A stretch of 64,000 nt of DNA from Sphingobacterium sp. CZ-2 (GTDB lineage Bacteria; Bacteroidota; Bacteroidia; Sphingobacteriales; Sphingobacteriaceae): NCBI RefSeq assembly GCF_004526235.1, contig NZ_CP038159.1, positions 3,782,001 through 3,846,000 on the forward strand, in the 5' to 3' direction. The translations under genes and the position numbers were made by a program. The stretch's first letter is position 1. Each line of letters begins with the position of its first letter. The notes below the pieces were generated by a model. That model searched no databases. It had not been told where the DNA came from and saw nothing but the letters and a program-made list of their open reading frames with translations. Below, in pieces: positions 36,513 to 52,060 of the stretch.

Positions 36513-37187
36513 TCACCTACACAATATGTTGAAATTATGGGACACTAATCTTTCGAGTTGCAATGGGTAACTAGATCTAGGCAAATCGACCAATGTTATC
36601 ACATCATTTAAAGCCGACTGCAGATAGTAAGTACCAACGTATTTCTTATTCTCCAGATACGAAATCATTTCCTGTAGATCCTCCAAGCTCAATAATTCCG
36701 AATGTACAGTCGTTCGAACCTCAAAAGGAATTTTATTCGCCTGTAAGAGCGCATATGTTTCTTCAAATCCGCCAAACAAATTGCTTACCGTAATATGTTT
36801 AAATCGTTCGCCCAATCCTTTGAAATCCAAGGCGACATAATCCAATAAATTTCGTCGAATTAATTCCATCATAATAGCTGGTCGACTGCCGTTGGTGTCG
36901 ACCTTTACCAGATACCCCATCGCCTTAGCTTCCTGTGCCAATGGCAACAACGCGGGGTGCATTGTGCATTCACCGCCACTGAAAACCACTGCCTGCAATA
37001 GGTTCTTCCTTTTCCGAAGAAAATGCAGCGCATCTTCTATACTCATCTTACCTTTTCCCAGTACGATATCGGGATTATAGCAGTACAAACAACGCATGTT
37101 ACAGCCTGTAAACCAAAGGATACAGGCTGATTTATTCGGATAATCTAATAAAGTAAATGGGCTGATATCATAGATCGGTTTTGTCAT
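36513..37187 (-). CDS. nrdG: Anaerobic ribonucleotide reductase activase
   Basis: 224 residues from the ATG at 37187; the upstream extension overlaps the glycyl-radical gene and lacks family similarity. The radical SAM motif is CNMRCLYC (Cys29, Cys33, Cys36), preceded by SPFTLLDYPNKSACILWFTG (quoted at its limit) and followed by FSGGECTMHP. It generates the glycyl radical of class III ribonucleotide reductase with SAM and a reduced 4Fe-4S cluster. It is oxygen-sensitive. The start overlaps the preceding gene by 20 bp. Confidence 0.93.
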   Translation of the reverse strand: MTKPIYDISPFTLLDYPNKSACILWFTGCNMRCLYCYNPDIVLGKGKMSIEDALHFLRKRKNLLQAVVFSGGECTMHPALLPLAQEAKAMGYLVKVDTNGSRPAIMMELIRRNLLDYVALDFKGLGERFKHITVSNLFGGFEETYALLQANKIPFEVRTTVHSELLSLEDLQEMISYLENKKYVGTYYLQSALNDVITLVDLPRSSYPLQLERLVSHNFNILCR

Positions 37188-37359
37188 TTCTTTCCTTAAA
37201 AAGCGTTCGCTGCTTATGTTCTCCCTGCTTTCCAATATTGAAACTCTCAATTGGCCGATGATACCCCATCACACGGGTATACACCAAACATTTACTTCTA
37301 TCCTGCTGATGTTGCTCCAACACCTGCAAGGTTTCATTTTTACATGTTTCCATCTGCAT
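37168..37359 (-). CDS. Separate glycyl-radical subunit of class III ribonucleotide reductase
   Basis: 63 residues. TRVMGYHRPIESFNIGKQ (about 28-45) is the C-terminal glycyl-radical loop of NrdD, with the radical glycine at residue 32, and two cysteines (Cys6, Cys24) upstream. The large NrdD subunit ends just before this domain. The gene overlaps nrdD by 20 bp and nrdG by 20 bp, so all three are translationally coupled in order nrdD, radical peptide, nrdG. A second ATG at 37353 is possible. Stand-alone NRDD peptides of this kind occur in Bacteroidota annotations. Confidence 0.85.
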   Translation of the reverse strand: MQMETCKNETLQVLEQHQQDRSKCLVYTRVMGYHRPIESFNIGKQGEHKQRTLFKERNDKTDL

Positions 37360-39451
37360 TTGTTAATTTATGATTCATAAGGATTTCTTCGTCACATTTT
37401 GGGCAATATTCATGCTCGCCATTCAAATAGCCATGTTTCGGACAGATACTGAAAACGGGGGTTACGGTAATATAGGGCAACCTGAAATTGGAGATCACCG
37501 TTTTCACAAATTCCTTGCAGGCTTCGGCAGTGCTGATCTTTTCGCGCATATATAAGTGCAGGACCGTTCCGCCGGTATATTTACACTGCAATTTATCCTG
37601 CAAGAGCAGGGCCTCAAAAGGGTCTTCCGTGTGGTCCACCGGAATCTGGGAACTATTGGTATAATAGATCTTATCGTCTATACCGGCCTGTAAAATATCA
37701 GGGAACCTTTTTTTATCCTCTTTCGCAAATCGATAGGTGGTCCCTTCTGCCGGAGTCGCTTCCAGGTTATAAAGATTTCCGGTTTCCTCCTGAAATGTTC
37801 TTAACCGTGTCCGGATAAAATCCAGGATTTCACTCGCAAAAGAAATCCCCCAATCGCTGATGATGGTTTCCTCATCCGCGGTATAATTCCGGATCATTTC
37901 GTTCATGCCATTTACGCCAATCGTAGAAAAATGGTTTCTGAAATGCGGTAAATACCGTTTTGTATAAGGATAAAGCCCATTATCATACATGGTCTGGATG
38001 AATTTTCTTTTCTTTTCCAAGGTGGATTTTGCCAAAAGCAGCAATTCATCGATCCGTTCGAAAAGACCGGCCTTATTTCCTCGGAACAGATAGCCCAGAC
38101 GCGCCATATTCAAAGTCACCACACCAATACTTCCAGTCATTTCTGCGCTGCCGAACAAGCCATTGCCTCTTTTGAGCAATTCCCTTAGATCGAGCTGAAG
38201 CCGACAGCACATACTCCGAACCGCATTCGGTTTGTAAGCATCCGGATTTTCCACCCTATTTCCCTCCGCATCGATCAGGTATTGGCTGCCCACAAAATTC
38301 TGAAAGTAGGATGACCCTATCTTGGCGGTATTCTCAAAAAGCACTTCTACATTTTCGCCATCCCAATCAAAATCCTCGGTAATATTCACCGTCGGAATGG
38401 GAAAGGTAAAAGGTTGCCCGTTCGCATCCGCTTCTGTCATCACCTCATAATAGGCCTTATTGATCATGTTCATCTCCTTTTGGAAATGCTTATAACACAG
38501 ATCCAACAAGGACGCTACGCCTCTTTCCTTAGCAAGGTCTTCGAGAATCGGACTGGAAAGCCCCTTGAAAAGATGTTGACTGGCTTTGGTAGGGATCTGG
38601 TCCTGAAGATCCTGGGGAACATTCCAGTCCAAGGTGATATTGGTGAATGGCGACTGCCCCCATCGAGCCGGTACATTCAAATTATAAACAAAACTTCGAA
38701 TGGCTTTTTTAACTTCTACAGCAGATAGTTGGTCTTTGAACACATAGGGCGCCAGGTAGGTATCAAAGGAACTGAATGCTTGTGCACCGGCCCATTCACT
38801 CTGCAAAATGCCCAAGAAATTGGCCATCTGCCCAAGTGCTTCCCTGAAATGCGATGGAGGTCGGCTATCAACCCTTCCTCGGACCCCATTGAACCCTTCA
38901 TCCAATAAAACACGTAGGCTCCAACCGGCACAATAACCGGTCAGGCAGTCAAGGTCATGGATATGGATATCGGCATTTCGGTGGGCATGTCCCTCCAAGC
39001 GGTTATATACTTTGTCCAGCCAATAATTGGCAATGATCTTTCCGGCGGTATTATTCACCAATCCGGCATTTGAAAAGGAATTGTTCGCATTGGCTTGGAT
39101 CCGCCAATCGTTCTGGTAGATGTATTCTTCAACCGCGTGGCTACTGTCTACATAAGTACCGGAATCTATGAACCGATCAATGTGTTCCCGTTGGAGTTTT
39201 CGGGTATGCCTAAATAACATGAAAGATCGCATCACCTGGAAATGTCCTCGGGAATAGAGTTTTGTTTCGATCAGATCTTGGATATCCTCCACATCGATTA
39301 GACTGCTCGAATCGATTTCTGCAAGGACTGATTCCAGGATACTTTCATCATAAGGGAGACTGACACTTTGAAAAGCTTTCCGGATCGCATCTTCAATTTT
39401 GAAGGCTTGAAAGGCCGTAACCAGCCCATCACGTTTAATCACATTTATCAT
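37340..39451 (-). CDS. nrdD: Anaerobic ribonucleoside-triphosphate reductase, large subunit without the radical loop
   Basis: 703 residues. An N-terminal ATP-cone (MINVIKRDGLVTAFQAFKIE) allows allosteric control. The catalytic ten-stranded barrel carries HDLDCLTGYCAGW and FGSAEMTGSIGVV with thiyl-site cysteines, and SRPPSHFREALGQM. The C-terminus has a zinc site (CPKHGY and CPKCDEE) and stops at NADGNM, before the glycyl-radical motif found in standard NrdD. The missing motif is supplied by the overlapping 63-residue gene. It makes dNTPs without oxygen. The promoter carries an operator shared with the nos operon. Confidence 0.93.
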   Translation of the reverse strand: MINVIKRDGLVTAFQAFKIEDAIRKAFQSVSLPYDESILESVLAEIDSSSLIDVEDIQDLIETKLYSRGHFQVMRSFMLFRHTRKLQREHIDRFIDSGTYVDSSHAVEEYIYQNDWRIQANANNSFSNAGLVNNTAGKIIANYWLDKVYNRLEGHAHRNADIHIHDLDCLTGYCAGWSLRVLLDEGFNGVRGRVDSRPPSHFREALGQMANFLGILQSEWAGAQAFSSFDTYLAPYVFKDQLSAVEVKKAIRSFVYNLNVPARWGQSPFTNITLDWNVPQDLQDQIPTKASQHLFKGLSSPILEDLAKERGVASLLDLCYKHFQKEMNMINKAYYEVMTEADANGQPFTFPIPTVNITEDFDWDGENVEVLFENTAKIGSSYFQNFVGSQYLIDAEGNRVENPDAYKPNAVRSMCCRLQLDLRELLKRGNGLFGSAEMTGSIGVVTLNMARLGYLFRGNKAGLFERIDELLLLAKSTLEKKRKFIQTMYDNGLYPYTKRYLPHFRNHFSTIGVNGMNEMIRNYTADEETIISDWGISFASEILDFIRTRLRTFQEETGNLYNLEATPAEGTTYRFAKEDKKRFPDILQAGIDDKIYYTNSSQIPVDHTEDPFEALLLQDKLQCKYTGGTVLHLYMREKISTAEACKEFVKTVISNFRLPYITVTPVFSICPKHGYLNGEHEYCPKCDEEILMNHKLTNADGNM

Positions 39452-39560: not shown

Positions 39561-41582
39561 TTAAAAAGAAATGTTCAGTTGCGCTATAAAATTCCGTCCA
39601 GGGCGTGCAATTTTCATGATGTCCTGATGCCTGTAATAATAGCTGTCGAGCATATTCTCAACACGCATATTAGCTGTGATGCGATTCTTTTTGAAAAGAA
39701 AGCTTTTTCGGATGCCAGCATGGAGCAGGGTAGCAGATCCCGTCTTCGTATCTCCATAAACCTCCGGACTTACATGCTGCTGCTCGGCATAATAAGCGAC
39801 TTCCATTTGTGCAACCCAATCCTTTATTTTCCAAAGGAAAGTGTTGTTATTCGTAAATGGTGCGATCAATGGCAGCGCATTTCCCCATTTGTCCTGACCA
39901 TAGGTATAGGAACTTGTACTGATCCATTCGAGGTTTTTCAAAGCTTGGATCCTGAAGGACAGTTCTGCTCCCGAAAGCTGTGCATCCGGAATGTTCTGGT
40001 ATTGCTTGACACCAGTTGCTCCGATGGTCATCACTTGGTAATCGGGGAGAATGGAGCCTACAATATAGTCTTTGAAGGCATAATGATAGGCTGTGGCCTC
40101 CAATCGCAGCCATTCTTTCTGGAAACTCAAACCTAAACTGGCCTGTAGGGATTTTTCGGTTTGAAGATCCATATTACCCAGATAGTCGTAATTATCCATT
40201 CTATTGAACAGGTAAAAACCATAATATTCCTGCAGACTAGCGGCTCGGTTTGCATACCCTATTTTGGCCATAACATGCCAATTGCTACTTGGGTGATAAT
40301 GTCCTGTCAGGTTCACATTCCCCAAATGATTATTCCTGTTGAAGTGAGCTCTTTGAAAACTGGAAAGCTGTTCCTTTCCTTCGGTACTAAATACATTAGA
40401 TTGGGAAAGACTATACGTCCCCATCACATCCAAGCCCCATCTTTCGTTGAATACGTAGCGATCGGAAATATCCAAGCTGTAAAAATGGCGCTGTACATCG
40501 GGCAGGGTATACATGAACATGGGATTTGCATCCTTTGGATACATGGTCATATTGGCTGTTAATCGGTTCAGATAAGCACTGACCCTGGCCTGAAAGAAAT
40601 GATTCCCTTTGGATAATCCTGTTTCAGAATAGAGACCCGCTGTCCATGACAACCCGGGCATATCCATATGCATAGGCACGGTTTCTATGGGTCTTTTGGT
40701 ATCATCCATGGCATGGTCGATATGGTTGAAATAGACCTTCGAGCGGATGGGGGACATCTCGGGAATAGCAGAAGTATAGGTATGTGTAAGGGAAGCAATA
40801 TTGGCATTCGCGAATGCCACATCCATGGTCAAAGCCGGATAACCAATATCCTGCCCATAATCGGCCAGGTATTGGGCAAGCAAGGTGTTTTTGTCATTCA
40901 GCTTGTAATGGAAAGCCGCGGATGCATTCCATTTCTGGAATTGGGAATTGGAAATGATAGCCTGGTTTCCTGCCCTATAATTTCCTGATTTTCGGAAGAT
41001 CCCGTTGATCAACAAACCATATCTATCGGTCGTGTATTGTAAGGATCCTAAAGTCTGTAGCGCCTTTGCATTGGTTTCATATCCAGTTCCAAGCATACCC
41101 TTAAAGCTTGATTGATCGGTAAAATCCGGAACAGCCAGTTTGAAGTCTATTCCTCCGGCCATTCCACCACCATAGTTTTGGAAGGAGGACCCCAAATTCA
41201 CATTGATCTGTTGCAGGTTGCTCGGTTCGATATACGAACTGATGGGATCCATCCGATCGGTGCAAGCACCGAAAATGGCCATTCCGTCTATACTCAGGTT
41301 GATCTGGGCGGCATTTAAACTACGGATACTGGGTTCCCAGGCGTAGTTACCGCGACGGATCATTTGCACGCCTGCTACCCGATCCAGAATCTGGTCGATA
41401 TTGGCCTGCTTGGAAGCACGTTGTTCCTTTTCTACCTGTTTATTGATCCCAACTTGGCTGACCACGACAACCTCTTCGATTTCTACATTCCGAAGGGTAT
41501 CGTGGTTTTCATGATGTTGTGCAAAACCGGAATGCCCAAGAAAGATGGCAGCCAGTCCCAAACCTATTGCTACAGCTTTCAT
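39561..41582 (-). CDS. TonB-dependent receptor, OprC/NosA-like, predicted for copper
   Basis: 673 residues. A signal peptide (to GFAQ, near 22) and a His-rich mature start (HHENHD) precede a plug domain with IDGMAIFGACTDRMDPISSY. Cys107-x3-Met111 here and His290-x-Met292 (HAM) in the barrel match the CxxxM/HxM copper site of P. aeruginosa OprC, with nearly the same separation; MHMDM at 304-308 adds further ligands. It is shorter than siderophore receptors and has no CarboxypepD domain. It lies 12 bp after a Met/His-rich lipoprotein gene at the end of the nos run, so it probably supplies copper for NosZ. Confidence 0.82.
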   Translation of the reverse strand: MKAVAIGLGLAAIFLGHSGFAQHHENHDTLRNVEIEEVVVVSQVGINKQVEKEQRASKQANIDQILDRVAGVQMIRRGNYAWEPSIRSLNAAQINLSIDGMAIFGACTDRMDPISSYIEPSNLQQINVNLGSSFQNYGGGMAGGIDFKLAVPDFTDQSSFKGMLGTGYETNAKALQTLGSLQYTTDRYGLLINGIFRKSGNYRAGNQAIISNSQFQKWNASAAFHYKLNDKNTLLAQYLADYGQDIGYPALTMDVAFANANIASLTHTYTSAIPEMSPIRSKVYFNHIDHAMDDTKRPIETVPMHMDMPGLSWTAGLYSETGLSKGNHFFQARVSAYLNRLTANMTMYPKDANPMFMYTLPDVQRHFYSLDISDRYVFNERWGLDVMGTYSLSQSNVFSTEGKEQLSSFQRAHFNRNNHLGNVNLTGHYHPSSNWHVMAKIGYANRAASLQEYYGFYLFNRMDNYDYLGNMDLQTEKSLQASLGLSFQKEWLRLEATAYHYAFKDYIVGSILPDYQVMTIGATGVKQYQNIPDAQLSGAELSFRIQALKNLEWISTSSYTYGQDKWGNALPLIAPFTNNNTFLWKIKDWVAQMEVAYYAEQQHVSPEVYGDTKTGSATLLHAGIRKSFLFKKNRITANMRVENMLDSYYYRHQDIMKIARPGRNFIAQLNISF

Positions 41583-41594
41583 ATGCTACCTATA

Positions 41595-42380
41595 TTAAAA
41601 AAGTAAATCCAAATAGATGTCTTTCGCTATTTCATTTTCTCCCAATTTCAAATCAAAGAACAAGCGCCAATCGCCCGTCATGGTAAAATTCACCTTGCCT
41701 TGATATTGGCCCTTGCCGATGGAAACAGGAACTACATTATTTGGGGAACCATGGTTCATCGAAGTCATCTCCGGGTGGAAACCTAAGGCTAATCCTTCTA
41801 CCGGTGAAAAAGAGAACATGTTTTCCCGCAAAAAGACCATCAGCACTAAATCATTCATGCCCATCTTTGGTTTGGAAGGTTCTACTAAAGCCAACACATA
41901 TTTCTTACCATCATTTCCAGAAATGGTTTTTACTGGGGTATTTCCAGTAGCCGCTGCTGTTACGTCTACAGGGATTTCCACCTCTTTTCCTTGGTAGGTT
42001 ACTTTTAAGCTCCAAGTTCCAGATTCTCCTGAAGGCATGGTAAATACGACAAAACCTTGGTAGGCTTCTAAATTGGATTGATAGGTCAGGTTTCCTGATG
42101 GCGCCCCGTGGGCCATGCTGCCCATATCCATGATTGGCGCAAAAGTTAATGGCTGATCTTTCACCGCTAACCCATTCTTTTTGACCTGAAAATATAGGTT
42201 CTGATAGCCTACTTGTAAAGCTTTATCAGCAAAAACACTAAGCTGTTCTCCAGTAGGCAAACTTGTTTCTGCCAATTTAATCTTTCCATCCATCGGCAAA
42301 TCCAATACTTCATCTTTTTGACATGATCCCATGAACAGCATTCCGATGCTCATCATGAGGAGGTATAACATCTTTTTCAT
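41595..42380 (-). CDS. Met/His-rich lipoprotein, predicted copper-binding
   Basis: 261 residues. Lipoprotein signal MKKMLYLLMMSIGMLFMGSC gives Cys20. Two similar beta-sandwich halves, YtkA/FixH-like, carry the potential copper ligands: FAPIMDMGSMAHGAP in the first, KPKMGMND and HPEMTSMNHGSP in the second. Such Met and His clusters bind Cu(I) or Cu(II) in periplasmic copper chaperones. It is placed immediately before the OprC-like receptor gene. A hand-over of copper from the receptor to NosL or NosZ is inference. Confidence 0.72.
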   Translation of the reverse strand: MKKMLYLLMMSIGMLFMGSCQKDEVLDLPMDGKIKLAETSLPTGEQLSVFADKALQVGYQNLYFQVKKNGLAVKDQPLTFAPIMDMGSMAHGAPSGNLTYQSNLEAYQGFVVFTMPSGESGTWSLKVTYQGKEVEIPVDVTAAATGNTPVKTISGNDGKKYVLALVEPSKPKMGMNDLVLMVFLRENMFSFSPVEGLALGFHPEMTSMNHGSPNNVVPVSIGKGQYQGKVNFTMTGDWRLFFDLKLGENEIAKDIYLDLLF

Positions 42381-42399: not shown

Positions 42400-42726
42400 T
42401 CACATATTCAATTGTGCTCTTCCTTCATCGCTCATTTTGTCTATCGACCAAAAAGGTTCCCAAACCAAGTTTATTTCGATTTTCAGCGCTGGAAAAGCGG
42501 TTAACAGTCTATTTTCAACTCCCTGTATAATAGCATCGCCCATCGGGCAATTTGGGGTTGAAAGCGTCATTTCTACCTTTATTTTGGTCGGTTCGGAAAA
42601 ATCCAGGTCGTAGACCAAACCCATATCTATAATATTGATCCCTAATTCAGGATCGATAACCTGCGATAAAGCCTGTAGCGCTTTGATCTTTTCAGCCGCA
42701 TATGGATCGCTTAGGTTAATCTGCAT
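42400..42726 (-). CDS. DUF59/MIP18 family Fe-S assembly factor
   Basis: 108 residues from the ATG at 42726 (a GTG one codon earlier was rejected). ALSQVIDPELGINIIDMGLVYD is the family opening (quoted in part: VIDPELGINIIDMGL), followed by TLSTPNCPMGDAI with the conserved Cys. Members (SufT, PaaD, MIP18) mature Fe-S proteins. The gene overlaps the end of the upstream membrane-protein gene by 11 bp. In the nos context it may serve an Fe-S protein needed for N2O respiration or the class III reductase, which is inference. Confidence 0.85.
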   Translation of the reverse strand: MQINLSDPYAAEKIKALQALSQVIDPELGINIIDMGLVYDLDFSEPTKIKVEMTLSTPNCPMGDAIIQGVENRLLTAFPALKIEINLVWEPFWSIDKMSDEGRAQLNM

Positions 42727-43987
42727 CACTCCTCCTTCTTTTATAGAAGACCACCATCAAGACATTCCATAGGTAAAGGATGGACAATAAGGTCCATAGG
42801 TAGGTAGCTCCTTCCAGTAACCAAGAAATCTTCAAGCTGATACCCAATAAGGATAATAGGAGATTGCCAATGAAAAGGAAGAATTGACCTTTTAGTAATT
42901 GCTGGCTATACATACCCTTGGGCATGGGAATCTTTTCTTTCCCATTCAGATCCTTGAATTTTAAGTTCCAAATGATAAATGGCAAGGTTTTAAAGGTCAT
43001 CCCAAGCACAATTCCAGTGATCCAACCCATAAAAATGAGGAAGGCATATAGGCTGATCACATTTCCAGCGGGAGTTTGTACGACGATTGGCAGCATAGCA
43101 AAGGCCATGAGCGAGCAGATAAAAGATAATAGCGCATGCTTCATGGGTATGTCTATTTTTTTCCTTGCCCTGTTCTTTATACAATCTAGGATATAGATTG
43201 CCCAAGAAATAAACCCTAAGAAAATTAAACTAGCGCTCCAAAGGGAGTTCAACCCTACACTATTCAGATAGCCATCTGCTAAGAATACACAAAGACCCAG
43301 ATTAATTAAAACAACCGCGGCATACAGGAATCTGGTTTTATTGCTCTTTCCCAACAGGAACATAGGCAGCATCTTAGCGCCAGCACCTAGGATCAATTGC
43401 AGAAACCAACCTACAATTCCGGCATGTGCATGAAGTTTTAGGATATCCAAATGGTTTTTAGATAAGAAACCATGGTAAAGATTGATCGCCAAGAGCAAGC
43501 CAATGGTCGTGGTGAAACAGAACCAGAAAGCAGAAAACGAAAAGAACAGATTCAGTTCAAAACCATGCGAAACATCTTTAATGGTCATCCAAAGGTTGAG
43601 GAAGTACAAGTAGGAGCTCAGACAGACCAGTGACCCAGCGATGATCATCCAATGATCGGTTTTGAAATGCCAAAAACAATAGATCAATAGCAAAGAGCCC
43701 ATCATCAACAGCAGGTAACTCCCGAAAGCCATCGGAGGCGAAAAGAGTTTCTTTCCAAAGATGACGGGAACCAACTGGTAGGCCGCGCCTAAAATAATCA
43801 TGCTTCCCCAACCTAAGGCAAGTGTATGCACGATGGCCAACACCTTGGGTTGGAAATAATGTCCCAGGATCTCTTTACCGGTAATCCCCAACAAAATAGA
43901 AGCAAGCACAAAGAACAGTGCAGCAGTTACATAACATGGAACGACCACATAGGCTTCTGGCGCTTTATTTATTTCTATTCTGGACAT
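42716..43987 (-). CDS. Heme-copper-oxidase-subunit-I-like membrane protein
   Basis: 423 residues with about twelve membrane helices. Histidines that could bind heme are in IVHTLALGWGSMI and LKLHAHAGIVGWFLQLI. The pattern resembles cytochrome oxidase subunit I or NorB-like folds but is shorter and lacks a clear CuB histidine triad or the Tyr crosslink region, so oxidase activity is doubtful. Related to the protein at 52054-53289, which has the same HAH-GW motif. Probably involved in electron delivery or NO handling for the nos system; the exact role is unknown. Confidence 0.7.
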   Translation of the reverse strand: MSRIEINKAPEAYVVVPCYVTAALFFVLASILLGITGKEILGHYFQPKVLAIVHTLALGWGSMIILGAAYQLVPVIFGKKLFSPPMAFGSYLLLMMGSLLLIYCFWHFKTDHWMIIAGSLVCLSSYLYFLNLWMTIKDVSHGFELNLFFSFSAFWFCFTTTIGLLLAINLYHGFLSKNHLDILKLHAHAGIVGWFLQLILGAGAKMLPMFLLGKSNKTRFLYAAVVLINLGLCVFLADGYLNSVGLNSLWSASLIFLGFISWAIYILDCIKNRARKKIDIPMKHALLSFICSLMAFAMLPIVVQTPAGNVISLYAFLIFMGWITGIVLGMTFKTLPFIIWNLKFKDLNGKEKIPMPKGMYSQQLLKGQFFLFIGNLLLSLLGISLKISWLLEGATYLWTLLSILYLWNVLMVVFYKRRRSDAD

Positions 43988-43994
43988 TTTCGCT

Positions 43995-44819
43995 TTATTT
44001 TAGATAAAATAATATCCTTACATCTCCTTCTCCGACTTCTGCAATCCGCATGGTATATCTTTCCTTTTCCAATTCCTCCATCAGATACAGGGGCACCTTA
44101 TGGTGTTGTACATACAATATTTCAGCTTTTTGGAGATCATTCAGTTTCATCAGGATCTGTTCCATGGGTTGAGGCATGGGTAACCCACGTACATCAAGAA
44201 AAAGGATCTTTTCCGAGGGATAATTTTCTAATATTTCCTCCAATTCATGGATAGCGATAAAAGAAATGGGTTCAGCCAACTCTTGCACGGGCTCCTCTTT
44301 CAAAAAAAAACAATGGTAGACAGGATTCTCTCTCGTTTCCATTTCTTCCACAAAACATTGAGCCCCTTTCTTTTCCAGTATAGGTATCAATGGATAGGGT
44401 ATAAAGGAATTGATAAGCAAGAAAACCGAGCCTGATGGCACTTGATGATAGGCCTGAAGGATTTCTTTCAATGGATCCTGCCCACCCAATAAAATAGGAC
44501 GGACATCCAATTCTTTACCAATGATTGCATGCTCTAACCAAGCTGGTTTTTCGGGTTTATTGACTTCCTGTTGTGTATTTTCAGCAAACTCATCCTCTTC
44601 CCAAATAAAACCAAGAGGCACCAACACACGTTTGAAATCCTGCACTTCACAACCCGCGATACTGGCTGCTTCGACTATAGATACCCTTGGGGTTAAGAAT
44701 TTACGCAATAACGGGATTTTTATTTTACGCAAAGGCTTGGCTATAGATGCGATAGCATCAATGCTAGATTCGTTGGCTTTTATTAGCGCGGATATCTTTG
44801 TATGTTGGTTTATCCTCAT
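43995..44819 (-). CDS. DUF1858 plus two DUF2249 domains
   Basis: 274 residues from the ATG at 44819 (a GTG seven codons upstream was rejected). An N-terminal DUF1858-like helical domain (about 1-75: HTKISALIKAN and TPRVSIVEAASIAGCEV) is followed by two DUF2249 (TusA-like) domains, beginning LDVRPILLGGQDPLKEI and FLDVRGLPMPQPMEQI. The second ends RYTMRIAEVGEGDVRILFYLK. DUF2249 proteins are often near anaerobic respiration or Fe-S and nitric-oxide genes. The usual TusA Cys is replaced (PQPM). Role unknown, but gene order puts it in the nos run. Confidence 0.75.
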   Translation of the reverse strand: MRINQHTKISALIKANESSIDAIASIAKPLRKIKIPLLRKFLTPRVSIVEAASIAGCEVQDFKRVLVPLGFIWEEDEFAENTQQEVNKPEKPAWLEHAIIGKELDVRPILLGGQDPLKEILQAYHQVPSGSVFLLINSFIPYPLIPILEKKGAQCFVEEMETRENPVYHCFFLKEEPVQELAEPISFIAIHELEEILENYPSEKILFLDVRGLPMPQPMEQILMKLNDLQKAEILYVQHHKVPLYLMEELEKERYTMRIAEVGEGDVRILFYLK

Positions 44820-44868
44820 GGCCACATTTAAAAACAGCACTCGATATGCTCATTTGAAAAATATCTCT

Positions 44869-45636
44869 TTATAAATCTTTTTTCCGGAAATGCCTTACGG
44901 ATAACCAAAGGGGGATCAGACACCACAGCAACATCACACCCAAGGTAATCCCCATTCCTAATCCTGTTCCGAAAAAATCCCTGAAAATTGCTCCGGTATA
45001 ACCCATCATGGCGGAGAGATCCAGCTGCAAGAGGATCAATATCCTACTGATATCAATGGGATTGAACATGGATAAGGCCACCATCATGTTCTCGATCGGA
45101 TAATCGGAGAACTGGAACAAGAGGAACAAGACCAATGCATCGAACAATAAGCCGAAATACAGCCATAATAAGATGGCAAGCCCAATTCCTTTGGACTTAT
45201 CCCGGATCAATACCGAGGTCCACATGGCGATGGAAACAAAGATCAGGGACAGCAATAGACCGCATCCGATCAAGATCAGGCCCGAATTACTGAACGCATA
45301 CATCAATGTAGGCACACCTACACCGATAAAAAATGAAAGACTCAAGGGACCGGCCAGCCCAGCAAAAAGGCTTAACCAGATATTGGTCCTTTTGAGTGGT
45401 TGGCTCACCAATAGGTTGATGAATTCCGAACTGTTATACAGGTATATGCTTGAAAACACGATACTCATCAAAGGCACCACAAAAAGGACGATATTTAATA
45501 AGCTGATCAAGCCCTTTTCATAGTTATCTTCCATGCTATAAACACTAATGGAAAGTGCAAATAGGAGAATGGTATAGCATATGATGGTTTTGTTCCTTAA
45601 CAAATCTGCCAGGACATATCTTATTACTTTATTCAT
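44869..45636 (-). CDS. nosY: ABC transporter permease for NosZ maturation
   Basis: 255 residues with six membrane helices. SSEFINLLVSQPLKR and AMWTSVLIRDKSKGIGLAI are typical of NosY/ABC-2 permeases. NosY forms with NosF and NosD the NosDFY complex, which takes part in copper-site assembly of NosZ in the periplasm. It sits 7 bp after nosF. No unusual feature. Confidence 0.9.
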   Translation of the reverse strand: MNKVIRYVLADLLRNKTIICYTILLFALSISVYSMEDNYEKGLISLLNIVLFVVPLMSIVFSSIYLYNSSEFINLLVSQPLKRTNIWLSLFAGLAGPLSLSFFIGVGVPTLMYAFSNSGLILIGCGLLLSLIFVSIAMWTSVLIRDKSKGIGLAILLWLYFGLLFDALVLFLLFQFSDYPIENMMVALSMFNPIDISRILILLQLDLSAMMGYTGAIFRDFFGTGLGMGITLGVMLLWCLIPLWLSVRHFRKKDL

Positions 45637-45643
45637 GGGAACC

Positions 45644-46363
45644 TTATTTAGAAGGACTGGAAACAGACATGATATGGGCTATCGCTTTCGAGAGCTTATC
45701 TGTTCCGGTATCCATTTTTAATTGATGAAGTGATTTATGAAAGATCAGATTTCCATCTTGTAGATAAATGATCTGGGAAACCATGTCGTCCAAATCACTG
45801 AGTACATGGGAGCTGATGATGATCAATTTATTGTTCCCCATTTCTTTCTTGATCTTATCTTTTAAGATCTCGGTGGACAAGGGATCAAGCCCGGCTGTTG
45901 GTTCATCCAATATAAGAGCTTTAGGATTGAACATGAATGCCAAACAGGCACTCACCTTTTGTCTGGTCCCACCCGATAGGGTTCCCATTCTTTTTTCCAA
46001 TAAAGCGGGTAGATTAAATGAATGGAAAAGATCGAGGTCCAGCGTATCCTCCGGCATCTTACGGATGTCCTTCATCATATCCAACACCTGACCGATGGTC
46101 ATGTTTTCAGGATATTGCCCAATCTGTGGCATATATCCGATCTCGTTCCTGTAGGTCCATTTCTGTTGGATGTTTTTTCCATCGAACAGGATATCACCAG
46201 CTGTTGGAACGACCATGCCTAAGATCGATTTGATCAAGGTGGTTTTACCGCTTCCATTTGGCCCGATCAAGGCAATACATTCCCCGCCCTGCAAATCTAG
46301 ATTGATATCTTTTAGCACTTTGAACTTGCCAAAGTCTTTGGAAATATGTTGAATCTGGATCAT
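45644..46363 (-). CDS. nosF: ABC transporter ATPase for NosZ maturation
   Basis: 239 residues. Walker A GPNGSGKTTL, Q-loop region IGYMPQIGQYPENMT, signature LSGGTRQKV and Walker B ALILDEPTAGLDP are intact. NosF powers the NosDFY complex. The start overlaps the nosD stop by 4 bp (ATGA), so translation is coupled. Confidence 0.94.
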   Translation of the reverse strand: MIQIQHISKDFGKFKVLKDINLDLQGGECIALIGPNGSGKTTLIKSILGMVVPTAGDILFDGKNIQQKWTYRNEIGYMPQIGQYPENMTIGQVLDMMKDIRKMPEDTLDLDLFHSFNLPALLEKRMGTLSGGTRQKVSACLAFMFNPKALILDEPTAGLDPLSTEILKDKIKKEMGNNKLIIISSHVLSDLDDMVSQIIYLQDGNLIFHKSLHQLKMDTGTDKLSKAIAHIMSVSSPSK

Positions 46364-47610
46364 ACCTTCACTGATTTCATGCGAGGTTGCTCATCTTTGA
46401 GCCCCTCTGGTGTTAAACTTGGTAATAACTTCTCCGAACGGTCAAATAAGGTGACCATAAAACTCCTGAACAGTAACATCACGGAAGGATATCGTTCTAC
46501 CAACATGGAAAACAAGCTGACCGGTCTGAACGGCACATCGCCAATTCCATCCCTGTCCAGATCATACCCTTCATATTTATCCCAATAATTCTGGGTGAAA
46601 TTGTTCAGGGTCAAGGTTCCATTAGTGGCTACATCAAAGGTATTCTGCATAAAATTATTGTCCCTGAATGTATTGTCCATACAACTTGCCTGGATTTTGA
46701 TCCCCCAACCATTTCCTATGAAATTGTTGTTGTCTATATGTATCCTATTGGATCCTTCCATAAAGATCCCCGTGGTGTTTCGATCAAATTTATTGTTGAT
46801 GATCTGGCTATCTGAAATGTCCTTCAAAAGAATTCCGTAGGAGGCATCGCCCCAGTTTTCTTCGAACAGGTTGTTTTCCATATGTACATTTTTGGTGTAC
46901 ATGACGGCCACCCCTGCTCCATTTGCACGGAAGGTATTGCCTACATAACTGTTATCATGTGAGAACATAAAATGTAGACCATAGCGAAGGTTTTTTTCAG
47001 AGATGGTATTCAACACATGGGTATGGGTTACAAACTCCAGGTAGATGCCATCCCGATGGCCAGTGACCGTATTTCTCTCAATATGCAGACTATCTGATTT
47101 CCAACCATGTATTCCATTGCCGATCAATTGTTCCGCCGTTCCATAAGCCTCGATTTTATTATCCAGGATTTCCAGGTGCTTGGAGTTCTGCGAATAGATC
47201 CCAAAGAAATTATCAATCAGTATATTATCGATCACTTTGACATGATGGGTATTGTAGATTTTTATACCCGCAATATCGTTAATGGAAGAATGACCGGAAT
47301 TCTTGATCTCAAAACCTTTAATGGTTACGTGTGGGGATTTTACAGATAGGGGTTCATGCTTTTTCTCGGCTTCTAACGTTGGTCTGCCTTCGCCCAACAG
47401 GGTTATGGCTTTATCCACGATGATGTTACCTTCTTTGTACAATCCTGCTTTGACCAAAACGGTATCTCCGGCCTTTGCCATCTCGATACCTTGTTTGATG
47501 GTTTTTACAGCTTGGTCTTTGCCTATTTTAATGGTAGTGGCATGTAGCATGTCCACTACCATAAATAAACAAATCATTGTACCAACTATATTCAAAGCTG
47601 AGCTTCTCAT
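46360..47610 (-). CDS. nosD: Periplasmic copper-processing protein NosD
   Basis: 416 residues from the ATG at 47610; an ATG nine codons earlier overlaps nosL and gives a worse signal peptide. The signal peptide is followed by right-handed beta-helix repeats (CASH domain) with N/D-G-I units such as NSSGHSSINDIAGIKIYN-like turns and KDISDSQIINNKFDRN. NosD is the periplasmic partner of NosFY and receives copper from NosL. It ends with a short positively charged tail. Confidence 0.9.
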   Translation of the reverse strand: MRSSALNIVGTMICLFMVVDMLHATTIKIGKDQAVKTIKQGIEMAKAGDTVLVKAGLYKEGNIIVDKAITLLGEGRPTLEAEKKHEPLSVKSPHVTIKGFEIKNSGHSSINDIAGIKIYNTHHVKVIDNILIDNFFGIYSQNSKHLEILDNKIEAYGTAEQLIGNGIHGWKSDSLHIERNTVTGHRDGIYLEFVTHTHVLNTISEKNLRYGLHFMFSHDNSYVGNTFRANGAGVAVMYTKNVHMENNLFEENWGDASYGILLKDISDSQIINNKFDRNTTGIFMEGSNRIHIDNNNFIGNGWGIKIQASCMDNTFRDNNFMQNTFDVATNGTLTLNNFTQNYWDKYEGYDLDRDGIGDVPFRPVSLFSMLVERYPSVMLLFRSFMVTLFDRSEKLLPSLTPEGLKDEQPRMKSVKV

Positions 47611-47620
47611 AATGTTCAGA

Positions 47621-48070
47621 TTATTTCCACAAATCATCCCATGTAAGGATCTTTCCTCCCAAGGATGCTTTCGTTTTCTCTAAATCTGCTTTGTTGCCAA
47701 ATGCAGCGACATTACCACGCATTGGACTTTTCAATTCCTCGCTTTTGAGGTAGAACATTTTTTCTGCAGGCATCAATTTATTATTGGTATAATCCGGCAG
47801 GTAATAACTGGCCACCTCTTCCTTCTTCACCTTACTCTCTTTCACATAGGCTACCATACAGGATACATCATCAAAATTATATACCCTTCCTTTTTTGGTT
47901 TGCAATTGGGTTCCAAACCGTTGATCGCTGACGGTCATCTTACAATATGCACATTGATCAGTCCCGTATTTGATCGGTTTTGGTCCATTGTTTCCTTGAC
48001 AAGCTTGCAATCCTAACATCATGAGCATCAAACTGCTCAGGCAAATACATATTATTCTAAAATTTTTCAT
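47621..48070 (-). CDS. nosL: Copper chaperone lipoprotein NosL
   Basis: 149 residues from the ATG at 48070; the longer frame upstream overlaps the next gene. Lipobox LQAC gives Cys24. DQCAYCKMTVSD (Cys40, Cys43, Met45) is the NosL Cu(I)-binding motif, followed by VYNFDDVSCMVAYV and the C-terminal FGNKADLEKTKASLGG region. It delivers Cu(I) to the NosZ maturation machinery. Confidence 0.93.
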   Translation of the reverse strand: MKNFRIICICLSSLMLMMLGLQACQGNNGPKPIKYGTDQCAYCKMTVSDQRFGTQLQTKKGRVYNFDDVSCMVAYVKESKVKKEEVASYYLPDYTNNKLMPAEKMFYLKSEELKSPMRGNVAAFGNKADLEKTKASLGGKILTWDDLWK

Positions 48071-48093
48071 GATTATCGAGTTTGTTTTTTTGA

Positions 48094-48678
48094 TTATTGT
48101 TTGGCTTTCCGCCATTCTTGAACAGCGCAGTAGGCTAACAGGATCCCGCATCCTATAAAAATCCAACCGCCAATATCAGGAATGGAATATGCCCCGAAAT
48201 TTAAAAGTTGTTTGTAACCAATCAATGGTGGCTGATAGGCCATTCCCGGCACTTTGATCGGAGCGTTGGGGTCAAGGTTGTGACCATAATCGTATTCCCA
48301 AATGTAGAAATCGACCATCGCTACGATTCCAAAAAGCAGGAAAGCTCCGAACAGTACATACACCCATTTTGGCTTATTGGCCAATCCTACGGCTAAAAAG
48401 GCCAAGGCAAAAAAACCAATGATATAGGGCAGCACGGTAAATTCAACGAAATCGTCTGCATGCAAGGTTTTCATACCGATATAGTGGTTAAGACCGTTGA
48501 TGATCTCCACTTGACCGGCCAGTTTATGGCTGTATATCTGCAATTCCAACCCTTCGGGGTATTGAGCTGCATCCAGCTCAATACGCCAAATAGGAAGGAA
48601 GATGACGGCTACTAAAGCCAGGCTACAAAGAACCAATAAAACTCTGTGTAAGGCTGACATTTTGTTTGTAGTTTCCAT
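48094..48678 (-). CDS. Four-helix membrane protein, NosB-like
   Basis: 194 residues with four membrane helices; the outer loop between helices 1 and 2 carries INGLNHYIGMKTLHADDFVEF, and the loop between 3 and 4 carries FYIWEYDYGHNLDP (each given in part). The conserved His, Asp and Tyr residues suggest metal or heme contacts on the periplasmic side. Clade II nos clusters, for example in Wolinella, have a membrane protein gene (nosB) next to nosZ; position and topology fit, but I could not verify homology. Confidence 0.65.
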   Translation of the reverse strand: METTNKMSALHRVLLVLCSLALVAVIFLPIWRIELDAAQYPEGLELQIYSHKLAGQVEIINGLNHYIGMKTLHADDFVEFTVLPYIIGFFALAFLAVGLANKPKWVYVLFGAFLLFGIVAMVDFYIWEYDYGHNLDPNAPIKVPGMAYQPPLIGYKQLLNFGAYSIPDIGGWIFIGCGILLAYCAVQEWRKAKQ

Positions 48679-48689
48679 CTTTATGGTGT

Positions 48690-50678
48690 TTAGTTAGTAC
48701 CTTCTTTAGGTAAGTTTGTTCCAACACTGTAAGAAATAGGCACATTGCTTCCTTTCTTAGAGATGCGGATATATCCCTGCATTTCTTGGTGCAACGCACT
48801 ACAGAAGTCTGTACAATAGAATGGGAACACGCCTATACGATCCGGCACCCATTTCAATGTTTGGGTTTCACCTGGCATGATCAACAGCTCACCATTTCTG
48901 GCACCTTTCACTGCAAAACCATGCGGCATATCCCAATCCTGTTCGATGTTGGTAACGTGGAAGTAAACCTCATCGCCCAATTGTACACCTTCGATATTGT
49001 CTGGAGCAAAGTGAGAACGGATGGATGTTAAATACACATGTACCTGATTTCCTTTACGTTCTACGCGTGCATCTTTTTCACCTTTGGTAGCATAAGGGTT
49101 GGTGTTTTCTTCGATCTTGAAGATTTTCACACTCTTATCCTTCACCTTTTCTGCGCGGATCGCTTGTGCATAGTGCGGCTCACCAATGGTTGGGAAGTCA
49201 AGGATCAGTTGCATCTTATCACCAGAGATGTCGAAGATCTGCGCACTTTGAGATAGTTCTGGTCCAGTTGGCAAGAAACGGTCTTTTGTAATCTTGTTAT
49301 ATGCCACTACGTATTTTCCGTCTGGGCTCTTGGTATCACCACCTGGGATCATTAAGTGTCCAGTAGAGTAATAGGTAGGAACGCGGTCAAGTACTTTTAA
49401 GTCTTTGATGTTCCATTTCACCAATTCAGAAGAAACGAAGAAGGAAGTAATCGCATTTCCTTTACCGTCAAACTCGGTGTGCAATGGTCCTAAACCTGGT
49501 TTTTCAACTTCACCATACAAGGCAGCATCGTATTTAATGATTGGAATACCACCAAATTTTCCTTCAAATTGTTTCCCTTCGATCGCTTTTTGAATTTTGC
49601 TGAAAGAGAATACCGGAATCAATGCGGCCAGTTTTCCTGAACCTACGATGTATTCACCTGAAGGGTCGACATCCACGCCGTGTGGAGATTTAGGACATGG
49701 GATGTAATAACATAATCCTTCTAACTCTTCGGCATTCAACACAATGGTTTCTGTTTTGAATTCGGTTTTTGAGGTATGCGATTTCTCGTCGTATTTATTG
49801 TGGGCATACTTCAATCCGGTTACTTTCTTACCCTTTCCAGCTTTCAGGTATTCTTCTGCTTTTTTCCAGTTTACCGCCAAGACAAAGTCTTTGTCGTTTT
49901 TGGAAGCATTTACCTCTAATAAAGTATTTGCCTGTTCGGTATTGTAGGTAGAGAAGAAGAACCAACCGTGGGAAACCCCTTTACCAGCGCGACTTAAGTC
50001 GTAATTGACACCTGGTGTTTCAATTTGGAAGGCTAAATCCATATTTCCATTCTCCTTATTCACACTCACAAAACTCAATGTACCACGGAAGTTTTGTTTG
50101 TAGGTATTGATCGGCACATCACCAGACTCTCCGTCTACAGGCACGGAGAAGCGGGTTCCAGCCACCACATATTCGGTGTTCTCTGTAATGAAAGGTGAGG
50201 AGTGGTTACCACCGCTGTTTGGAAGTTCTAAGATCTCCGCTGTACGGAAGGTGGTCAGATCCACACGCGCTAAACGCGGGGTGTTGTTTGCATTGACAAA
50301 TACCCATTTACCATCGTATTCACCATCTGTTTTAGATAATTGCACGTGGTGCAAATCATCCCATGGCACATTACCATGTGAAGTTTCCAACATCGGTTTT
50401 GTTTCTTCACTGAAACCCCATCCTTTTTCAGGGTCAAGGGAGAAAACCGGAATTACCCGAAGCAATCTACCTGAAGGCAATCCGTAGACAGATAACTGAC
50501 CACTAAATCCTCCAGAAACGAAATTGTAGAATTCGTCGTATTTTCCAGGAGCAACGTATGCCTTCTCGGCAGCACCACCGCTCACGGCTTCACCTGCGCC
50601 TTTTGGCTTACAGGCTTGGAAAGTTGATAACAGCGTTGCGGCTGCTAAACCTGTTAATAAATATTTTTTTAATTCCAT
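48690..50678 (-). CDS. nosZ: Nitrous oxide reductase, clade II, predicted lipoprotein
   Basis: 662 residues. The signal MELKKYLLTGLAAATLLSTFQAC lacks twin arginines and ends in a lipobox-like FQAC, so export is Sec-dependent and the mature protein may be lipid-anchored. The seven-bladed propeller holds the CuZ histidines, including WDDLHHVQ and SPHGVDVDPSG. The cupredoxin domain has the CuA motif CTDFCSALHQEM (Cys622, Cys626, His630, Met633). It reduces N2O to N2 with electrons from cytochrome c. DxHH in place of DxHHxH and the Sec signal place it in clade II (atypical). Confidence 0.95.
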   Translation of the reverse strand: MELKKYLLTGLAAATLLSTFQACKPKGAGEAVSGGAAEKAYVAPGKYDEFYNFVSGGFSGQLSVYGLPSGRLLRVIPVFSLDPEKGWGFSEETKPMLETSHGNVPWDDLHHVQLSKTDGEYDGKWVFVNANNTPRLARVDLTTFRTAEILELPNSGGNHSSPFITENTEYVVAGTRFSVPVDGESGDVPINTYKQNFRGTLSFVSVNKENGNMDLAFQIETPGVNYDLSRAGKGVSHGWFFFSTYNTEQANTLLEVNASKNDKDFVLAVNWKKAEEYLKAGKGKKVTGLKYAHNKYDEKSHTSKTEFKTETIVLNAEELEGLCYYIPCPKSPHGVDVDPSGEYIVGSGKLAALIPVFSFSKIQKAIEGKQFEGKFGGIPIIKYDAALYGEVEKPGLGPLHTEFDGKGNAITSFFVSSELVKWNIKDLKVLDRVPTYYSTGHLMIPGGDTKSPDGKYVVAYNKITKDRFLPTGPELSQSAQIFDISGDKMQLILDFPTIGEPHYAQAIRAEKVKDKSVKIFKIEENTNPYATKGEKDARVERKGNQVHVYLTSIRSHFAPDNIEGVQLGDEVYFHVTNIEQDWDMPHGFAVKGARNGELLIMPGETQTLKWVPDRIGVFPFYCTDFCSALHQEMQGYIRISKKGSNVPISYSVGTNLPKEGTN

Positions 50679-50719: not shown

Positions 50720-51196
50720 TTATTTTACACCATCATTCTGGCGCATGTATTCATAGATTTTGCGAGCATCGTCATCGGTCAGGTTTTGATTAGGCATACG
50801 CACAAGACATATTTCCAATTGTGCCTGCAATTCCGGATCCTTATCGATCATGGCGTCTGGATTCGTGATGAAATTCATGATCCATTCTGGTTTTCTACGC
50901 TCTGACACGCCTTTCCAGCCTGGACCTACCAATTTCTCATCGGTCATCTTATGGCAGGAAGCACATTTCAGATCGGCAATCACTTTTCCGTCATTGGCCA
51001 TAGACACGTCCAGTTTTTCGCCCACTTCTACTTTATCAAACTTTCCTTCACCTCGGTGTGGATCATATGTACTGGCATCACTTGCTGCTGGAGCACTCTC
51101 TTCGGCGTAAGTACGCTCTTCTTTTTTCTCGTTGTTGTTTGATGAACATGCATACATGAACAAGCTCATCAAACAGAATACAATTAGTTTTTTCAT
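50720..51196 (-). CDS. Cytochrome c lipoprotein, probable electron donor to NosZ
   Basis: 158 residues from the ATG at 51196; the longer frame upstream contains the promoter. Lipobox MYAC gives Cys17. One heme c site CASCH (Cys78, Cys81, His82) and a distal Met in VRMPNQNL indicate a class I monoheme cytochrome. An acidic linker precedes the heme domain. As first gene of the nos run, 41 bp before nosZ, it likely passes electrons to the CuA centre. Confidence 0.88.
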   Translation of the reverse strand: MKKLIVFCLMSLFMYACSSNNNEKKEERTYAEESAPAASDASTYDPHRGEGKFDKVEVGEKLDVSMANDGKVIADLKCASCHKMTDEKLVGPGWKGVSERRKPEWIMNFITNPDAMIDKDPELQAQLEICLVRMPNQNLTDDDARKIYEYMRQNDGVK

Positions 51197-51244
51197 AGCT
51201 TCGTTAGTTTTTGTTTTTACAATGTTTGTGTATTTTGTTTTCCA

Positions 51245-51293
51245 CAAAGTTATCCTCAAGTTCCGCCAGGATTTTATGCGTGGAATCATAAAA
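51245..51293 (-). promoter_or_regulatory. nos operon promoter with Crp/Fnr-type operator
   Basis: TAACTTTG (51252-51245 on the minus strand) is a perfect TAnnTTTG box. Upstream, TTTTATG-CGTGGAAT-CATAAAA (51272-51293) is a perfect 7-bp inverted repeat separated by 8 bp. Its centre lies about 42 bp upstream of the predicted start, the classical class II activator position. No -33 TTG is present. A 50-bp leader precedes the cytochrome start. Confidence 0.65.
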
Positions 51294-51365
51294 CGGATTT
51301 GGCTTCTTTCAAAATCTCGTTTTTTATATCGCAATCGTCTTTATTTCAATATCTTATGAATTAAA

Positions 51366-51379
51366 TTGATTTTAATCAC
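51366..51379 (+). promoter_or_regulatory. FNR-like box upstream of the Crp/Fnr gene
   Basis: TTGAT-TTTA-ATCAC differs from the FNR/DNR consensus TTGAT-N4-ATCAA in one base. It is centred about 64 bp before the start predicted from the -7 box at 51424-51431, close to a class I position. Confidence 0.5.
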
Positions 51380-51463: not shown

Positions 51464-52060
51464 ATGATCCCAGTGGAACTATTAATCGAAAAAGGAGCCA
51501 GCAGCAAAAAATGGAACGCTGGGGAGATTATTTATCGGGAGAACAGTCCTTCCAATTATTACTACCAATTGGAGAGTGGTCGAGTTCGGATCAGTAACTT
51601 TTTGGAGGATGGAAAAGAAGTCCTACACAAAATCGTTTGTGCCAATGAGGGTTTTGGGGAGGTGGCCATTCTGGACGAAGGAGTGCATGTGGTTACCGCC
51701 ATTGCAGATAGCAGCTGCACTATTTTAAAGATCAGTACCGCGGCATTTTTAGAGATATTAAATGAGTATGGAAGTATTCAGCTTATGATTACCAAACAGA
51801 TTGCTAAGGATCTTCGATTTAAACATTTTATTACCAAACTGATCTGTAACCATAGCCCAGAAGAAATCATCTCGGGATTATTAGAGAAGTTGAACGAGGA
51901 GAGGAGATTGATCTGCCCAGAATGTAACCGCTTAATGTTGACCCGACAGCAATTGGCCAACATGACCGGCTTAAGGGTGGAAACCATCATAAGAACCATG
52001 AAAATCATGGAAAAGGAAGAAAAGTTGAATATCGTGCGGGGGAAAGTCTTTGTATGTTAA
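51464..52060 (+). CDS. Crp/Fnr family transcriptional regulator
   Basis: 198 residues. A cyclic-nucleotide-type beta-roll (about 15-105, with WNAGEIIYRENSPSN and GFGEVAIL), a dimerisation helix (105-130), and a winged HTH at about 158-185 with LTRQQLANMTGLRVETIIRTM; Glu173 and Arg177 match the DNA-reading positions of FNR. There is no N-terminal Cys cluster, so it is not an FNR-type Fe-S oxygen sensor; a CPEC pair (151-154) sits just before the HTH. It probably activates the divergent nos run. Confidence 0.92.
   Translation: MIPVELLIEKGASSKKWNAGEIIYRENSPSNYYYQLESGRVRISNFLEDGKEVLHKIVCANEGFGEVAILDEGVHVVTAIADSSCTILKISTAAFLEILNEYGSIQLMITKQIAKDLRFKHFITKLICNHSPEEIISGLLEKLNEERRLICPECNRLMLTRQQLANMTGLRVETIIRTMKIMEKEEKLNIVRGKVFVC

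Follow-up and report, generated by a model that had tools for sequence, protein, structure and literature searches.

Introduction

The closest described systems are the TonB-dependent receptors OprC of Pseudomonas aeruginosa and NosA of P. stutzeri. The receptor considered here shares with them the TonB-dependent architecture, a CxxxM-HxM site and the fold (TM about 0.8), it may share a methionine track, and it is linked to N2O reductase by its position among the nos genes, much as NosA has been tied to that enzyme. One difference from OprC is that no lipoprotein partner is described for the latter in the main text of its paper (PMC8610252). The results obtained with NosA mutants are conflicting, as recounted in the same paper: in a second strain of P. 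stutzeri NosZ was normal after nosA had been knocked out. The need for a NosA-type receptor is therefore unproven.

An OprC-like receptor with the CxxxM-HxM residues is already known from one species of Bacteroidota (PMC11213822). This is G2EC70 of Bizionia argentinensis, listed as an uptake candidate; its locus tag and that of nosL are close to each other, and it very likely belongs to the same family as the receptor discussed below. It differs from the present case in that a lipoprotein partner, a surface signal and integration into a nos run are not described for it in the passages found. A link to respiratory enzymes is also known for CrtA/BfrG, a TonB receptor for copper, but it falls in a sequence cluster separate from OprC and imports chelated copper (PMC12914433).

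Two further systems provide useful comparisons. In BtuB-BtuG and SusC-SusD of Bacteroidota a TonB receptor is encoded together with a lipoprotein of the cell surface, an arrangement that is predicted here; they differ in ligand and in the fold of the lipoprotein, which is YtkA/Ig-like in our case, where a complex of the two proteins is a prediction. CtaK/YtkA and YcnJ of Bacillus subtilis place a YtkA domain in a copper pathway for a respiratory enzyme, but they are single-domain proteins of a Gram-positive organism and are thought to act in CuA assembly. In our search of the open-access literature neither the lipoprotein partner nor its surface signal nor the capture of such a pair by nos genes was found described.

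The nos run and its last two genes

The window, a stretch of 64,000 nucleotides from Sphingobacterium sp. CZ-2, contains an N2O reductase (nos) operon of which a receptor gene (39561-41582, reverse strand) and a lipoprotein gene (41595-42380, reverse strand) are the last two members, separated by 12 bp. The position, strand, residues and spacing given for this pair in a preliminary description were all correct. The run lies entirely on the reverse strand and begins with a lipoprotein cytochrome c (50720-51334, the start codon of which is probably further in). This is followed by nosZ (48690-50678), encoding a clade II Sec-dependent N2O reductase (TIGR04246, 950 bits), by a membrane protein at the NosB position between nosZ and nosL (48094-48678, assigned by position and conserved in relatives), and by nosL (47621-48166, PF05573), nosD (46360-47637, TIGR04247), nosF (45644-46363, an ABC ATPase matching PF00005, assigned also by position) and nosY (44869-45636, PF12679 and position). 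Then come a DUF2249 protein (43995-44840, PF10006), a polytopic membrane protein that is NnrS/heme-copper-like and matches no Pfam family (42716-43987) and a SufT-like FeS-assembly protein (42400-42729, PF01883), which ends 19 bp before the lipoprotein gene. The intergenic distances across the whole run are only -73 to 41 bp, so that a single transcript is likely, with the pair probably transcribed together with the nos genes.

The DUF2249, polytopic and SufT-like genes (42400-44840) occur in some Sphingobacterium nos loci (L034-L037 of our set) and are missing in others (L031-L033). The receptor gene ends 109 bp from an anaerobic ribonucleotide reductase gene; nrdD and its activase (36513-39451) come next after the nos run, in the same orientation, in every Sphingobacterium nos locus examined. 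At the other end, beside the nos head, are a divergent Crp/FNR-type regulator and a 411-residue membrane protein (51464-53289), and these are found near nos in many Bacteroidota loci.

An OprC-like receptor

The receptor, of 673 residues, has the Pfam Plug and TonB barrel domains. In a single-sequence search its best PDB match is OprC (6fok, E = 9e-20), and a profile of 32 receptor sequences aligns with OprC over nearly the full length with E = 5.7e-42, the runners-up being ZnuD (2.4e-16) and PhuR (2.4e-15). An AlphaFold2 model (pLDDT 86) was compared with known structures using Foldseek, and OprC is again the nearest fold (TM 0.81/0.83), ahead of PhuR and ZnuD. The identity to OprC is about 19%. 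The score against TIGR01778, the TonB-copper equivalog model, is 126.5 bits and falls below the cut-off of 472; we therefore name the protein OprC-like and do not file it as a member of that family.

The predicted copper site has two halves. The plug contributes Cys107 and Met111 in C107-TDR-M111 (41250-41264, reverse strand), aligned with Cys143 and Met147 of OprC, and the barrel contributes His290 and Met292 in H290-A-M292 (40707-40715, reverse strand), aligned with His323 and Met325. The separation of the cysteine and the histidine is 183 residues, compared with 180 in OprC (Cys143/His323; PMC8610252), close to the OprC spacing as had been proposed. All four ligands are unchanged in 33 of 33 relatives at about 29-69% identity, and in 138 of 138 sequences reaching down to 22% identity to the window receptor; the motif is thus not a product of chance. 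In 80 named loci, which were found with patterns including ACTD[KR]MDP, the cysteine and methionine of the plug were partly preselected and the histidine and methionine of the barrel were not; loci that came from the lipoprotein or from a profile search of genomes carry no preselection for the receptor motif, and their ligands agree.

Six additional methionines (Met253, Met306, Met308, Met345, Met347 and Met355) are likewise invariant in the 138 receptors. OprC has a silver-binding methionine track formed by Met286, 339, 341, 343 and 348 (PMC8610252), and in the sequence alignment the MHMDMP segment that carries Met306 and Met308 is placed on the Met339-343 stretch. By profile, predicted fold and invariant ligands the protein is a distant full-length homologue of OprC and, as the preliminary description had it, a predicted copper receptor of the OprC type. 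The comparison with NosA made there is a fair one for the receptor.

A lipoprotein with two YtkA domains

The partner is a lipoprotein of 261 residues with two tandem Ig-like domains and belongs to the YtkA family (PF13115, E = 1.5e-11; 45.2 bits against a gathering cut-off of 25.9). Pfam recognizes one domain. The two halves match each other (BLASTP 6e-7; hhalign probability 96.5%) and the predicted structure (pLDDT 92.8) has two runs of β-strands, one per domain; the internal repeat and the model together rule out a single-domain protein. Foldseek comparison with the PDB returned generic Ig-like matches only, at low TM. The C-terminal domain is weakly related to the entry 9ll2, annotated as a `copper resistance protein' (profile E = 3.4e-6), which is a useful indication but no proof of copper binding.

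Each domain carries a set of methionine and histidine residues. In the C-terminal domain the set lies in HPEMTSMNHG (residues 202-211; 41748-41777, reverse strand), and Met205, Met208, His210 and Met234 are present in every one of 108 paired relatives. The corresponding N-terminal set lies in MDMGSMAHG (42105-42131, reverse strand; GSMAHG being residues 87-92), where the same relatives keep Met84 in 94%, Met86 and His91 in 92%, Met115 in 92-94% and Met89 in 78%. Three clusters had been singled out beforehand in this Met/His-bearing partner and two of them, HPEMTSMNHG and GSMAHG, are conserved. The third, KPKMGMND (residues 170-177), is present but not conserved, with Met173 kept in 1% and Met175 in 15% of the relatives, and we reject it as a copper site.

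Distribution and probable recruitment to N2O reduction

The association of the two genes extends well beyond Sphingobacterium. A YtkA lipoprotein adjoins the receptor in 80 of the 80 named loci and in 28 of 29 further loci fetched with the receptor, from Sphingobacteriaceae, Chitinophagaceae, Flavobacteriaceae, Cyclobacteriaceae and others. Most of these loci are not beside nos: nosZ or nosD lies within 26 of the 80 named loci, with a few Arenibacter loci that have nosF/nosY at the edge scored as unlinked. Since the two-gene unit is found across the phylum and mostly away from nos, dedication to NosZ, which had been proposed for it, cannot be its general role. The pair appears rather to be a general copper importer of the phylum that has often been recruited to N2O reduction.

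One could go further and suppose that NosZ is simply one client among others and that the nos position has no meaning. We regard this as an unlikely reading, albeit one with several observations in its favour: nos linkage is absent in most loci, 25 of the 72 receptor-bearing genomes in a sample of the phylum lack nosZ, and OprC itself is present in non-denitrifiers (PMC8610252). Against it is the manner in which the linkage recurs. The pair may stand behind nosY, before the cytochrome c gene or inverted inside the nos cluster (L052, L053), and on the receptor tree, a FastTree reconstruction in which long branches are present, nos linkage changes at least 13 times. Co-occurrence with nosZ is also strong. 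In the family to which the window belongs, 24 genomes have the window-type receptor and 177 do not, and nosZ is found in 20 of the former and 37 of the latter (Fisher 3e-9); for the paralogous receptor the count is 11 of 24 genomes (p = 0.04); across the phylum sample the figures are 47 of 72 receptor genomes and 81 of 323 others (Fisher 2e-10), none of these tests taking account of shared ancestry. Repeated linkage and co-occurrence together support the functional link to N2O reduction that had been proposed.

The paralogous pair occurs in Sphingobacterium relatives (L058-L069), with MbnP and MbnH directly downstream; in its lipoprotein CPH replaces MxMxxMxH in the first YtkA domain. Other neighbours of copies away from nos, namely SecDF, ribonucleotide reductase, UDP-GlcNAc acyltransferase and alanine dehydrogenase, were dismissed as lineage-bound.

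A missing leader and a proposed change of control

A further argument against a meaningless nos position comes from what precedes the pair. Elsewhere the genes are headed by a small ORF, in most cases about 122-135 residues long. It has a hydrophobic stretch towards the N-terminus, PP at the C-terminus and a CxGxC motif with one more cysteine ahead of it (for example L141:8510-8878, L045:6454-6819 and L142:8499-8894, among loci L031-L184). After the removal of four duplicates, leaving 108 loci, such a leader stands before 71 of 72 copies without nos linkage and 29 of 36 that are nos-linked (73 of 74 and 30 of 38 with duplicates included). CxGxC and PP are present in all 103 leaders found, with 63-72 residues between them, and in an alignment of 32 the only invariant columns are three cysteines, one glycine and two prolines. 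Pfam gave no meaningful match for the leaders tested.

The layout recalls CruR (CXXC, RAPP) and CutF (CxxxC and a proline-rich end), which are copper-sensing leaders (PMC9426467, PMC9973294); CutF-like proteins of the Bacteroidota are tallied in bulk in PMC9973294. The leaders of the pair resemble these in being exported, in the cysteine motif, in the C-terminal PP and in the short gap to the next gene, but they lack a match to DUF2946. To judge by their sequences, they look like copper-sensing arrest-peptide leaders of the CutF/CruR layout. Members of the family occur in 174 of 201 genomes of the family of the window. They also head, by eye, a protein of ~730-800 residues followed by a PepSY-like membrane protein of ~370-500 residues (L219, L221, L222, L224-L226) as well as MbnP/MbnH-like pairs (L220, L223, L228, L230), and two leaders stand in tandem in L224 and L229.

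The window copy of the pair is leaderless. A leader search found no such ORF upstream of it, and the gap of just 19 bp between the SufT-like and lipoprotein genes leaves no room for one. The seven leaderless nos-linked copies are all of the same nos-integrated Sphingobacterium type. One leader is retained elsewhere in the genome, before genes that by appearance resemble an MbnP/MbnH-type pair.

The nos run is headed instead by an FNR/Crp-type palindrome, TTGATTTTAATCAC (51366-51379); the same 14-mer heads the operon of L035 (on the reverse strand), and near variants are found in most of the Sphingobacteriaceae nos loci checked. With at most one mismatch allowed, seven of eight distinct nos loci of Sphingobacterium and Parapedobacter (L031-L037, L106) have the box within the 350 bp that precede the cytochrome gene, compared with 4.5% of random stretches. 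Before the leaders elsewhere it was found in 3 of 103 cases, not above background. The pattern as such is no rarity, with 11 occurrences in the entire window and 6.9 expected, so that the information lies only in its position before the nos genes of several relatives, and a promoter scan was no richer than shuffled sequences. The simplest reading of these sequences is that the pair has moved from copper-leader control to nos control. Dedication to NosZ, rejected above as a general role, is plausible in Sphingobacterium, where the pair lies inside the nos run without the usual copper leader. The pair may nevertheless also feed oxidases, being the only such system of its genome, where neither a further YtkA protein nor another close OprC-like receptor was found.

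The lipoprotein and the outer-membrane surface

The cysteine predicted to be lipidated, Cys20, opens the sequence C20-QKDE (42309-42323, reverse strand). In Capnocytophaga canimorsus the optimal surface-export signal is C-X-K-(D/E)2-X, and Flavobacterium and Bacteroides use S/D-rich signals (PMC5080379). C20QKDE fits this rule, bearing in mind that the rules were derived from Capnocytophaga, B. fragilis and F. johnsoniae and not from Sphingobacterium. The paired lipoproteins show dialects by lineage, with CxKD in Sphingobacteriaceae and Chitinophagaceae and CSSDDD or CSTDDD in Flavobacteriaceae. A single LES-like pattern, C-X-K-(D/E)2 or S(D/E)n after the lipobox cysteine, was applied to all sequences and matched 75 of 106 paired lipoproteins. 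It matched none of 34 NosL and none of 31 NosZ sequences, and a single one each among 39 cytochromes c and among 8 unpaired YtkA proteins. About 30% of the paired lipoproteins missed the pattern, some of them through parsing errors, and the pattern was drawn up after examples had been seen, so that the contrast carries more weight than the percentage.

An N-terminus of this type makes the capture of copper outside the outer membrane likelier than the action of a periplasmic chaperone, and by analogy with BtuG and SusD the lipoprotein is probably a surface copper-capture partner that sits beside the receptor. The alternative is a lipoprotein facing the periplasm that carries copper from the receptor to NosL or NosZ. 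We have kept it under consideration because CtaK/YtkA supports CuA assembly in Bacillus: both CtaK and the YtkA-domain C-terminus of YcnJ do so in B. subtilis (PMC13344008). Unpaired YtkA lipoproteins of the same family (L054-L057, L059, L060, L062, L070), mostly near a cytochrome c-like ORF, lack the surface signal, which indicates that periplasmic YtkA proteins exist in the Bacteroidota; these are possibly oxidase-assembly proteins. It is the paired copies that have surface-type N-termini, unlike NosL, NosZ and the unpaired proteins, and their gene pair resembles the known Bacteroidota pairs of surface lipoprotein and transporter. We consequently think it quite improbable that the window protein works in this way, and the `added chaperone' of the preliminary description is probably wrong.

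Proposed mechanism

We consider it likely that the two genes specify a two-part outer-membrane copper uptake system that the nos operon has captured. Anchored at the surface, the lipoprotein would bind copper, with one Met/His site per domain, and hand it to the OprC-like receptor, whose methionine track would guide the metal to the site formed by Cys107/Met111 and His290/Met292 between plug and barrel. TonB would drive its passage into the periplasm, where NosL, NosD and NosFY would load it into NosZ, and N2O reduction would depend on the pair when copper is scarce. It is highly improbable that the receptor instead imports heme or some metal in chelated form and that the motif has a structural role. 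In favour of this is that the receptor scores equally against the heme-receptor model TIGR01785 and the copper model TIGR01778; against it, all four of the OprC ligands are invariant, as are six further methionines, OprC is the best match by fold, and the context of copper-type leader and MbnPH points the same way.

On a broader view, about which our own opinion is evenly divided, a copper uptake complex of surface double-YtkA lipoprotein and OprC-like receptor, normally under the control of a copper-sensing CutF/CruR-like nascent leader, would be widespread in Bacteroidota and would have been recruited several times to N2O respiration, Sphingobacterium having lost the leader and placed the pair under a nos promoter of the FNR type.

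Implications

N2O reductase, which is limited by the supply of copper, is the chief enzymatic sink of a major greenhouse gas. Bacteroidota of clade II are abundant among the organisms that reduce N2O, and their copper import is uncharacterised. The organism considered here has its sole close OprC-like receptor and its sole YtkA protein together inside the nos run, and the disputed role of a NosA-type receptor in NosZ maturation is therefore testable in it. The pair would, in addition, extend the principle of a surface lipoprotein working with a TonB transporter to a bare metal ion.
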